Virus record (IMG/VR): IMGVR_UViG_3300031513_000158
Location: 1-28,366 of that record
Direction: 5' to 3' (one strand)
DNA: 28,366 nucleotides
Source: a virus
The position numbers were made by a program, and so were the translations under genes. Positions 16,926 through 28,366 of the stretch are shown piece after piece; positions within the stretch are counted from its first letter, which is position 1, and every line of letters starts with the position of its first letter. Below the pieces are notes generated by a model that saw only the letters and a program-made list of their open reading frames with translations, ran no database searches and was not told the DNA's origin.

Positions 16926-17180
16926 ATGGTGCGGAAGCTACAGGCTGTTTACGAGGGCGGCATCTTGCGGCCTGTCGAACCGCTGCGTCTCGACGAGCAT
17001 CAGCTCGTAAGCGTGATCATTCTGGACGACCTCGCCAACGACGAACTCGCTTTTGAGCCACCCGAGCGCTTCGAGGCCCTCGCCGACCACAGCGTGTCCC
17101 TGGAGGCGGTGCGGCGGGCGCTGGCGAAGATCCCCGGTCCCCTAGACGCCGACTTCGCGGCAGAGCGGAACGAACGTTAG
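16926..17180 (+). CDS. Antitoxin, DUF104 / AF2212-like family (84 aa)
   Basis: The N-terminus MVRKLQAVYEGGILRPVEPLRLDEHQLVSVII follows the DUF104 antitoxin pattern (short β-strand, YenGvlrPleplxLxeg). The C-terminal half is acidic and helical (FEPPERFEALAD, LEAVRRALAKIPGPLDADF) and probably wraps the toxin. The stop codon is followed directly by the GTG of a PIN-domain toxin, the standard arrangement. It reads against the surrounding structural operon. The absence of a ribosome binding site and the TAGAAT at 16914 suggest a leaderless message. Confidence 0.85.
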   Translation: MVRKLQAVYEGGILRPVEPLRLDEHQLVSVIILDDLANDELAFEPPERFEALADHSVSLEAVRRALAKIPGPLDADFAAERNER

Positions 17181-17642
17181 GTGCCGGGCTACTTCGTTGA
17201 CACCAGCGCACTGGCAAAACTCTACCATTGGGAAGTCGGAAGTGAGCGCATGGAAGCGCTCATGGAAGCACCCGATGCTCGGTTGATCATCTCGCAGCTT
17301 TCCCTGGTTGAGATCGAATCCGTTTTCGCCACCAAGGTCAGGATGGGAATGATCGACAAGACAGCGCTCGAACAGCTTCGAGGGCGGTTCTATGCCGATC
17401 TGGCTCGGGGCCGGTTCGAAGTCGTTCTAATGGCCCGCCGTCACTTTCAAGGTGCAGAAGCGCTGGTGCGAACCCACGCGGTGAAACATACGCTCCGGAC
17501 GCTGGATGCCCTGCAATTGTCCGTGGCCCTCGACCTGCACCGCCGTGGGGCGGCATCCCAACTGGTCACCTCCGACAGAGCTCTCTCCGAGGTGGCCACC
17601 CTGGAGGGGCTGCCGGTGGTGAATCCTTTATCAGGGCAATAG
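17181..17642 (+). CDS. vapC: VapC-type PIN-domain ribonuclease toxin (153 aa)
   Basis: A complete PIN domain: YFVDTSALAKLY with D7, SLVEIESVFATK with E44, RTLDALQLSVAL with D109 and LVTSDRALSEVA with D132. These are the four acidic residues that bind Mg/Mn in VapC nucleases. Family members cut tRNA, rRNA or mRNA; the target here is unknown. The start is GTG, adjacent to the antitoxin TAG with no gap. It ends 18 bp before the convergent chaperone-extension stop at 17661. All catalytic residues are present, so it is probably active. In a phage it could stabilise the prophage or exclude other phages; that role is inferred. Confidence 0.92.
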   Translation: MPGYFVDTSALAKLYHWEVGSERMEALMEAPDARLIISQLSLVEIESVFATKVRMGMIDKTALEQLRGRFYADLARGRFEVVLMARRHFQGAEALVRTHAVKHTLRTLDALQLSVALDLHRRGAASQLVTSDRALSEVATLEGLPVVNPLSGQ

Positions 17643-26201: not shown

Positions 26202-26396
26202 TCACCGCATCCCTGACGCCGCTGGGTCGTGCACCCGGCGGCGTTCCTCTTCGAGCAGCCTTAGCTCCGCACTCCAGTCGGCCAGCGCCAGGCACAGCCC
26301 GGCGACGTCCCGGTGACCGCTCGACAGCAGGCCCTTAATCTCGGCAATCTCGCGCCGGCAGCGCTCGATCTCACGATCGATACTCAGCGGCGCCAT
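26202..26396 (-). CDS. Small helical hypothetical protein (64 aa)
   Basis: Not recognised. It is almost entirely helical and charged (LSIDREIERCRREIAEIKGLL, LCLALADWSAELRLLEEERRRV), suggesting a two-helix coiled coil. It begins inside the end of the HNH gene (26-base overlap) in the same direction, which supports co-expression. It has no clear ribosome binding site of its own and its stop abuts the convergent gene stop at 26201. Confidence 0.55.
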   Translation of the reverse strand: MAPLSIDREIERCRREIAEIKGLLSSGHRDVAGLCLALADWSAELRLLEEERRRVHDPAASGMR

Positions 26397-26997
26397 TCTG
26401 CAACTGTTCGAGGTCTCGTCCGCTCGATGCAGTCACACCTCCCTTCGGATCGGCCCAATCCCACTTACGGTGGCACGAGGTGCAGAGCCAGCGAACCTCA
26501 AGCGGCTGATCGTAGTTCTCATGGGCGGCTTCGACGCGTCCGTACCGGCCACACCACGAGCAGCACTCTGGGCGCTGAAGTCGGCCGGTCTGGACGTGGT
26601 AGCGAACGATGCGCTGGGCAGCCTTTGCCTTTTGGTTGCACTGCATGGGCGGCCGACGACCGACGGCCTGCGCCAGCGCTTTGCAGGCATACGAGCAGTA
26701 CACACGGGTAAGACGATCAACCGGACCAAAAGTCCGCCCGCAATCACGGCACGTCAAGAAGGTTTGCGGCCGGTAAAGCTTCCTGCACCGTTCCGAACAA
26801 AGTTTTCGCCCGGCTCTTCCTTCAAATTCTGCCCCGCATATGACGCACTGACGTACCTCCACACCGTGGCAAGAACGGCAGCGGGACGACAGAGTGTTCG
26901 AGCGGACCCGATAGAACTGCTCGATCGGCAATTCTCGTTGGCATCGCTTGCACGCCTTTGCAACCGGGCCAGGAACTTGCGGACTTAGAGCAAGCAT
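26371..26997 (-). CDS. HNH-type endonuclease with multiple zinc modules (208 aa)
   Basis: Residues below count from the alternative TTG start at 27012 (213 aa); I prefer ATG 26997, five residues later, though neither has a clear binding site. Four cysteine modules follow each other: C21/C24 with C45/C48, C56/C59 with C72/C76, C88/C91 with C106/C110, and C151/C154 with C177/C180. The last holds RVEAAHENYDQPLEVRWLC and TSCHRKWDW, the phage HNH-like signature (compare VEAHHxDYxxPLxVxWLCxxCH). Phage proteins of this type cut or nick DNA as free-standing or homing endonucleases. It lies just downstream of the intein-bearing methyltransferase and in the same direction. One canonical His of the HNH pair is replaced by Ala (AAH), so activity is not certain. 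Confidence 0.8.
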   Translation of the reverse strand: MLALSPQVPGPVAKACKRCQRELPIEQFYRVRSNTLSSRCRSCHGVEVRQCVICGAEFEGRAGRKLCSERCRKLYRPQTFLTCRDCGRTFGPVDRLTRVYCSYACKALAQAVGRRPPMQCNQKAKAAQRIVRYHVQTGRLQRPECCSWCGRYGRVEAAHENYDQPLEVRWLCTSCHRKWDWADPKGGVTASSGRDLEQLQNGAAEYRS

Positions 26998-27032
26998 ACG
27001 TGGAAAAAGCAAAGCGGATGACGTTCGGAGCT

Positions 27033-28366
27033 TTACTGAGTCACAGAACTGCGATTCGCTCGAACTACTTGGAAGGGCTCCCCGGACGACTCAAGCACCG
27101 CTTTCTTGCCAGTATGAGATTCCCAGCGAGAAATCACGACATCACAATACGATGGATCGATCTCCATCAGCCGCGCCCGGCGTCCCAGCTTCTCGGCCGC
27201 GATCAGCGTCGAGCCCGAGCCGCCGAACAAATCCAACACCACCTCGCCGGCCCGCGACGAGTAGGTCAGCGCCCTCAGGGCCAACTCTACCGGCTTCTCC
27301 GTCAAGTGCACCATCGCCGCCGGGTTGACCTTCTTGACGACCCACACGTCGGTGGCGTTCTTGATCTCCGGGTTGAACCAGTGCGCCGCGCCTTCACGCC
27401 AGCCATAGAAGCAGTTGTGGGTTACTAGGCCATCGGCCACGTAGTGAGCGTAGCGCGCCACGTCCAGTGAGTACACCTCGCCATCGAACGGCTCCCAGTC
27501 GACATGAATGGGCTCCCACCGCGTCTGCTGGCCGTGGACTGCTACGGGAATCATCATTACGCCCGACAACAAGTTGCAGGCCCGCACGCGCACGGACGGG
27601 CGAGCGCCGATCTTGTCGCGCGTGTGGTGAGCGATCAGGAACGGATGATCGAACGATCGGCCGTGGTCCTGGAGCAGGCGGCGCGCGTTCTGCTCCAGTC
27701 GCGTCAGGTCCAGTCGATCATAAAGCCTGCGCACGTCGGCCAGGGCCCTTCGCGAGGAGGCACTCTCCGACCAGGTCGTCGTCGGAATCCCGTACTCGGC
27801 CAGAATGAGTTGCTCGGCGATGGTCGCTTCCACGTTCGAGGGATAGACGGACAAGATCCAAGCCGCTTCGCCCCCCTCGGTCTTGAGCCGGTGTTTTACC
27901 CCGACGCCCCAGGTGGAGCGGAGCTTGGACTTCCCGATGCGCCACCAGCAACCTCGCCGCATCAGATAGACACACCACCACTCCCCCGCCCACGGGGCGA
28001 GCTTCACGCTCCAATGGTGCCCCGGCGTGCAGCGTGTCACTGAACGCCCGGCACGGACCGAGAGTAGCGGTCCGTGGTAACGCCGCCGGGTCTGCCGCAC
28101 GGGCAGGCCCTGGCGCAGCCCTACGAGCACGTTCGAGTTGCGACTGTAGCTGATGACCCGATCGCCATCGCGCAGGCTCTGAATAGGAACCGCACCCTCG
28201 GGCGTCATGACCTGCGTGTCCGCAGGCTGGCACCACTCGTGGTTGCCCATGAAATCCTTGCGCGTGAGCACGGGGTGTTCCTTGACCCAGATGATGGCCT
28301 GCGAGAAGTACAGGCCGCAGTCGGCCAGCGCCGGCGGGTAGTTGGCGCAGTTGGCGTAGCCGCCCC
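27033..28366 (-). CDS. DNA adenine/cytosine-N4 methyltransferase interrupted by an intein (5' end outside the window)
   Basis: The frame is open to the right edge: before the apparent start at 28271 it reads YANCANYPPALADCGLYF and QAIIWVKEHPVLTRKDFMGNHEW, a methyltransferase segment. After the intein the chain resumes CFYGWREGAAHWF, DVWVVKKVN, HLTEKPVELALRALTYSS (motif X region), VVLDLFGGSGSTLIAAEKLG (motif I, SAM binding) and RRARLMEIDPSYCDVVISRWE (motif II/III). Motif IV before motif I indicates β-class order; the DPPY motif must lie outside the window. The enzyme would methylate phage DNA, often protecting it from host restriction. GTG 28271 is not the real start. Confidence 0.9.
   Translation of the reverse strand, partial: GGYANCANYPPALADCGLYFSQAIIWVKEHPVLTRKDFMGNHEWCQPADTQVMTPEGAVPIQSLRDGDRVISYSRNSNVLVGLRQGLPVRQTRRRYHGPLLSVRAGRSVTRCTPGHHWSVKLAPWAGEWWCVYLMRRGCWWRIGKSKLRSTWGVGVKHRLKTEGGEAAWILSVYPSNVEATIAEQLILAEYGIPTTTWSESASSRRALADVRRLYDRLDLTRLEQNARRLLQDHGRSFDHPFLIAHHTRDKIGARPSVRVRACNLLSGVMMIPVAVHGQQTRWEPIHVDWEPFDGEVYSLDVARYAHYVADGLVTHNCFYGWREGAAHWFNPEIKNATDVWVVKKVNPAAMVHLTEKPVELALRALTYSSRAGEVVLDLFGGSGSTLIAAEKLGRRARLMEIDPSYCDVVISRWESHTGKKAVLESSGEPFQVVRANRSSVTQ
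27414..28232 (-). other. Intein (273 aa) with GIY-YIG-like insert
   Basis: It begins with Cys (TGC 28232) after the extein residues GNHEW and ends with HN (AAC 27416-27414) before Cys+1 of the C-extein. Block A is CQPADTQVMTPEGAVPIQSLRDGD, block B is RSVTRCTPGHHW (Thr-x-x-His), and blocks F/G are GEVYSLDVARYAHYVADG and LVTHN/C. All catalytic splicing residues are present, so it should excise itself and restore ...NHEW-CFYGW.... No LAGLIDADG motif is present. The insert instead has VYLMRRGCWWRIGKSK, HRLKTEG, AAWILSVYPSNVEATIAEQLILAEYGIP, which resembles a diverged GIY-YIG nuclease fold (VYL for GIY, RIG for YIG, then Arg and Glu). Whether it still cuts DNA cannot be said. Confidence 0.88.

Follow-up and report, generated by a model that had tools for sequence, protein, structure and literature searches.

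The window analysed here is a stretch of 28,366 bases, the IMG/VR virus record IMGVR_UViG_3300031513_000158, and stems from a tailed phage, with genes for a lambda-type portal protein, an S49 protease and capsid protein E. Its right end is occupied by an open frame on the minus strand (27033-28364) for the C-terminal part of an N6/N4 DNA methyltransferase, with an interruption of 273 residues. The C-extein (27033-27413, minus strand) runs from the +1 Cys of CFYGW to the stop codon and forms the C-terminal half of the methyltransferase (Pfam N6_N4_Mtase, 9e-17; PHROG 498, 4e-38). The N-extein (28233-28364, minus strand) consists of the 44 amino acids preceding the interruption, ending in KDFMGNHEW; because the contig edge truncates the precursor at its 5' end, the N-terminal part of the methyltransferase lies outside the window. 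At a distance of 20 bp, the methyltransferase gene is followed on the same strand by a gene for an HNH-type endonuclease (26371-27012; PHROG 2340, 2.5e-19), for which Pfam gave no match at 0.01. In the head and tail module, a pair of genes coding for an AF2212-like protein (84 aa) and a PIN-domain protein (153 aa) is present at 16926-17642 on the plus strand, in opposite orientation to the surrounding structural genes; this is likely a VapBC-type toxin-antitoxin pair.

The interruption is read without stop codons from 28232 to 27414 on the minus strand and, with near certainty, represents a class 1-type intein. It begins with Cys1, contains the block B T-x-x-H motif as T69-PG-H72 and ends with H272-N273, followed by the Cys at +1, so that all residues expected for this class (C1, the block B motif, the penultimate His, the terminal Asn and C, S or T at +1) are present. 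The Hint N-terminal half (27987-28232; residues 1-82) carries C1, T69 and H72 and was delimited by a Hint_2 match and an AlphaFold2 model, while the Hint C-terminal half (27414-27596; residues 213-273) ends in VTHN and was identified by the NCBIfam model intein_Cterm (TIGR01443), which is above its cut-off (19.5 versus 15.6 bits). The window intein also matches two Pfam models below their own cut-offs, Hint_2 (E 4e-5) and Intein_splicing; relatives reach 2.5e-8. The AlphaFold2 model of the whole intein, based on 48 aligned rows, has a pLDDT of 95 and a pTM of 0.90, and in a Foldseek search it retrieved intein and other Hint structures from the PDB with E-values down to 7e-6. Among 63 representatives of the family, clustered at 85% and with identities down to about 25%, C1, H72, Y264, T271, H272 and N273 are invariant, and T69 is present in 62. 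From these intact residues, the Hint domain would be expected to excise itself and to ligate NHEW to CFYGW.

With the joined exteins as query, the 80 closest loci were collected, 74 of which are uninterrupted at the junction, and a DNA pattern search yielded at least 120 viral stretches in which the site is empty. A sequence-only reading of the window had placed a splicing-competent intein at these coordinates, with exteins joining to a continuous methyltransferase, and had suggested searching for related phages with an intact NHEW-CFYGW junction; position and strand were correct, such phages proved abundant, and both the anatomy and the empty sites support splicing competence. The closest full-length intein-less methyltransferases (L213 and L215) are 85-87% identical, and over the 90 bases spanning the junction the window allele differs from L215 at two positions. 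At the +1 position of the 74 uninterrupted junctions, Cys was found in 57, Ala in 15 and Ser in 2; every intein-bearing allele of the methyltransferase gene has Cys. In the intein-less alleles with Ala or Ser (L213, L214, L224, L226, L227, L262 and others) the junction is otherwise nearly identical. Without the splicing nucleophile, the alleles with Ala (L213 and L214 among them) would be unable to splice an intein of the window type and may thus be naturally resistant to its invasion.

More than 90 relatives of the window intein were recovered from phage methyltransferases and UvrD helicases. Their hosts include Streptococcus suis phages, SPO1, E. coli phages, Planctomycetota, Cyanobacteria and Actinomycetota. 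By tblastn, full-length relatives were identified in S. suis phage methylases (39% identity) and, at 37%, in the intein annotated in the UvrD helicase of SPO1 and of related phages. Further ones lie on a Providencia plasmid and in helicases encoded on Nostoc, Stanieria and Thermobispora plasmids, while Vibrio phage RYC and phages of the phi92 type contain more distant members. Scans with family alignments returned 80 of 94 matched viral loci and 31 loci in bacterial genomes, among them Planctomycetota and Acidobacteriota MAGs, Streptococcus, Roseomonas and Cyanobacteria. When viral contigs were scanned with only the SPO1 intein as query, relatives were not found, because its exact peptide patterns were too narrow. 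Within the Actinomycetota, the inserted domain described below is present in 19 of 296 sampled genomes, mostly in frames of about 830-1160 aa, and the host frames read were of the UvrD type as judged by the junction motif. The domain is rare in the phyla of the other seeds, with 1 of 249 genomes for the Roseomonas search, 2 of 194 for the cyanobacterial and 2 of 249 for the Streptococcus search, counts which are slightly inflated because one genome in each search is the seed itself. Free-standing copies of the insert were not found in about 990 genomes from four phyla, where all matches lay in frames of at least 734 aa, except for one broken fragment of 46 aa. The occurrence of the same intein family in many unrelated phages and bacteria makes it look mobile.

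Among known systems, two groups of phage inteins are closest to the window intein. The gp34.33 intein of Bacillus phage SPO1, with its counterparts in CampHawk, SP82G and Goe2, is a full-length member of the family (37% identity, E 2e-47; 275 aa compared to 273 aa in the window) and shares the landmarks of the insert. Unlike the window intein, it resides in motif III of a UvrD-type helicase (GDDDQ-S, where the hyphen marks the insertion point here and below), and it has been annotated as an intein only, with the nuclease type unnamed, also in the CampHawk paper. The methylase inteins of the S. suis phages phiD12, YS162 and Javan599 share with the window the host family and the insertion point (HEP-CL[FY]GW) and are 39% identical to the window intein over 273 aa. 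These are annotated as methylase only, and the YS162 record contains no intein feature. An S. suis phage DNA methylase, L005 (OP662530.1), is a family member without intein annotation, and on a Providencia rettgeri plasmid, L007 (NZ_CP077319.1), a copy of the family lies where the gene table lists zero genes.

The methyltransferase site is common to the group of the window (NHEW-CFYGW) and to a Streptococcus and proteobacterial group ([QK]HEP-C[LWF]). In UvrD-like helicases, three registers were identified at motif III (GDxxQ-S/C, GD[PS]-CQ and GDxxQQIY-S/C), together with two motif-II-like contexts (DE-CQD and DExQD-C). These helicase sites lie only a few residues apart (L008-L011, L072, L080, L084-L089 and L074); the host of L074 has no Pfam match. 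It is known that GIY-YIG enzymes such as I-TevI cleave at a distance from the insertion site, which could explain why one intein family is found at several registers of one helicase motif. A family occupying so many registers is unusual and would fit an enzyme whose cleavage may lie away from the insertion point.

The two Hint halves are separated by an insert consisting of a compact domain (27768-27983, minus strand; residues 84-155) and a variable helical segment (27597-27767, minus strand; residues 156-212). The latter has the highest column entropy of the intein and contains two helices in the AlphaFold2 model (164-172 and 176-189); it may contact DNA. The compact domain was delimited by its invariant landmarks, the order of its predicted elements and an hhalign match to the GIY-YIG domain of UvrC. 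The landmarks named in the sequence-only reading were all located, with VYL at residues 88-90, RIGKSK at 98-103, R115, and AEQLILAEYGIP at 139-150. Among the 63 representatives, Y89, R98, G100, R115, W125 and E140 are invariant in the insert (minus-strand codon starts of the landmarks are 27968 for Y89, 27941 for R98, 27935 for G100, 27890 for R115 and 27815 for E140), and residue 97 is always aromatic. In its degree of conservation the core of the insert is similar to the Hint halves, and the helical segment following it is the most variable part.

At the GIY position the family reads (V/T/L)YLM, with the Tyr in 63 of 63 representatives and the initial Gly absent. At the YIG position it reads (W/F/Y)R(V/I)G, in which the Gly is retained and the Tyr is replaced by Arg, again in all 63. 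The central Arg and the C-terminal Glu of the superfamily are present throughout as R115 and E140. AlphaFold2 predicted the elements beta 86-93, beta 96-103, alpha 111-118, beta 123-130 and alpha 133-147 (pLDDT 92-95), both when the insert was modelled alone and inside the intein, and this beta-beta-alpha-beta-alpha order is that of GIY-YIG domains. When the insert family was compared by hhalign with GIY-YIG sequences gathered from genomes, the UvrC domain was matched with a probability of 59-71% and a score of 27-30, with Tyr, Gly and Glu in register. As controls, further 90-aa slices from those UvrC proteins scored no more than 16.3, non-self slices from nine conserved ORF families (77 real-domain slices) no more than 16.7, and 100 column shuffles no more than 20. 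The profile relation to known GIY-YIG members is thus of moderate strength and is carried by the UvrC match.

Pfam, NCBIfam and PHROG scans of the insert gave nothing significant. In a Foldseek search with the insert alone, no GIY-YIG structure was among the 50 listed of 72 weak matches, all with E above 1, and a PDB search with the insert profile gave no match. GIY-YIG structures were likewise absent from the Foldseek matches listed for the whole intein, where Hint predominates. An insert of another small beta-beta-alpha-beta-alpha fold, with GIY-YIG-like landmarks acquired by convergence, would account for these results as well as for the altered YIG motif and for a UvrC match which is moderate rather than overwhelming. 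Such an origin is nevertheless considered unlikely, since the UvrC score is clear of all three sets of controls and the landmark residues as well as the secondary structure elements agree in their order with GIY-YIG domains. In addition, the actinobacterial members L208 and L209 have short loops and are almost URI-like, with a near-canonical "VYLM...WRIGVTNDIVTRL"; the short-loop stretch of L208, YVYLMHKQELGWRIGVTNDIVTRL, is close to canonical URI domains, and that of L209 differs from it by one residue. L208 was also the only member through which a PDB sequence was reached, with 1zg2 as its best match, in register, at an E-value of 0.23.

Based on sequence comparison and structure prediction, the insert is therefore very probably a divergent domain of the GIY-YIG type. 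It resembles the superfamily (the N-terminal domain of UvrC, URI/UPF0213 and I-TevI) in the order of Tyr, Gly, Arg and Glu, in the order of elements and in the UvrC profile match, and differs from it by the Arg in place of the YIG Tyr, the missing first Gly, a long loop that precedes the Arg in the majority of members, and its embedding in an intein. The term GIY-YIG-type is used, and canonical membership is not claimed, because the YIG Tyr is Arg in every representative, Pfam is empty and GIY-YIG structures are absent among the Foldseek matches listed. The derivation proposed earlier from the sequence alone is supported by landmarks, element order, UvrC match and actinobacterial bridges, though not as a canonical GIY-YIG; the structure prediction and profile search suggested with it likewise returned the GIY-YIG element order and the UvrC match, together with the empty Pfam and Foldseek results. 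That the insert is not of the LAGLIDADG type was borne out, as LAGLIDADG and HNH models of Pfam were silent in the family members scanned. The T5orf172/MUG113 branch shares with the insert a basic residue for the YIG Tyr (YKIG there, WRIG here), and accepted T5orf172 members have Lys at this position. As the closest branch, T5orf172 and MUG113 were rejected, since their profiles, like that of URI, matched the insert no better than background. The T5orf172 branch is treated as GIY-YIG, with phage nucleases known and nuclease activity in at least one case (PMC10448857).

The replacement of the YIG Tyr in every member might indicate that the insert is a GIY-YIG-derived fossil, no longer cutting and retained since the intein needs an open frame and proper folding. 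Homing nucleases inside inteins commonly decay, and some intein pairs of this family are more diverged than their own exteins, so that not every copy has moved recently. However, decay would not spare exactly the candidate catalytic residues Y89, R115 and E140, which are invariant in 63 of 63 representatives next to a helical segment that varies freely, and the dN/dS of the core is 0.02-0.20 for pairs with usable dS, not above that of the Hint halves. A fossil is accordingly judged unlikely, and the invariance of the landmark residues makes the degenerate domain, which had been left as an option in the earlier reading, less likely.

The distribution of the intein was analysed on a tree of 99 host methyltransferases, in which the intein label requires 17 changes, at least 11 of them forced by well-supported branches; this tree is based on 156 columns with an unsettled bootstrap, contains a long branch (P_L023), and its relatives were picked by similarity to the query. 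Several times, intein-bearing and empty alleles are near neighbours on it, and empty alleles with scattered presence are what characterizes a homing element. Between the loci L015 and L016, a tract that covers the intein with 300 bp upstream and 200 bp downstream of it contains a single difference; outside this tract, the two mostly show 6-26 differences per 100 bp on both sides. For L057 and L111, a one-sided tract with a boundary about 100 bp upstream was identified. In the group of the window, the dS of the intein is 0.13-0.29 depending on the region, about half of the extein dS of 0.37-0.50, a comparison which is descriptive. The tracts and the low intein dS would fit homing with co-conversion, while phage mosaicism could be an alternative source of single identical tracts. 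The insertion point in the conserved body of the enzyme had been expected to make a good homing site; the patchy distribution and the conversion-like tracts argue for homing, though indirectly.

Also considered was a reuse of the domain for a purpose other than homing, such as binding DNA, acting as a repressor or setting the time at which the host protein splices. Conserved residues indicate a function and not its type, the hosts of the family are DNA enzymes, and I-TevI also acts as a repressor (PMC10448857). A role serving the host predicts stable inheritance, whereas the observed presence is scattered with many empty sisters, and such a reuse appears improbable. Still less probable is a spread of the intein by general phage recombination or by the HNH neighbour in trans, with the insert uninvolved. 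Phage genomes are mosaic and the HNH-type gene lies directly beside the methyltransferase gene, but among related loci, several of them short-flanked, homologues of it adjoin just the intein allele L028 and the empty alleles L302 and L355, and it is therefore not linked to the intein. As a partner of the intein the HNH neighbour was rejected on these grounds; moreover, the conservation of the insert residues would be left unexplained.

The locus is thus best read, with fair probability, as a mobile class 1-type intein with a divergent GIY-YIG-type nuclease domain between its Hint halves, which most likely cuts intein-less alleles. The domain would cut the methyltransferase alleles at or near the insertion site, or UvrD helicase alleles in the case of the UvrD-hosted relatives, and the intein would spread when, in a co-infection, the cut is repaired with the intein-bearing copy as template. 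Judged from these comparisons, it is probable that homing is driven by the insert. For the broader proposal, that a widespread intein family homes by a divergent GIY-YIG nuclease with Arg for the YIG Tyr and has settled at the methyltransferase and at neighbouring UvrD registers, the chances are put at slightly better than even.

LAGLIDADG and HNH nucleases are the types described in inteins, and Dassa et al. in 2009 reportedly linked a Vsr-like nuclease to split inteins. Like LAGLIDADG and HNH inteins, the family has a nuclease-like domain splitting the Hint halves and uses conserved motifs of nucleic-acid enzymes as sites, and it differs from them in the silence of those models. In a survey of the superfamily from 2006, GIY-YIG members were not known from inteins (PMC1564403), and a later report of a GIY-YIG intein was not found in the open literature. 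The nuclease type is therefore likely new to inteins. If active, the family would add another nuclease type to inteins, and, if the proposal is true, would provide the first description of GIY-YIG homing in them. Its hosts include model phages, SPO1 among them, in which homing is directly testable.

In the actinobacterial and phi92-type inteins (L122, L012 and L194-L209), roughly 100 additional residues with a pattern like VNLTMFSD..HRVQWSSN..RFETSRKDY separate the helical segment from the Hint C-terminal half. This part is perhaps a DNA-recognition domain which is missing from the short version in the window.
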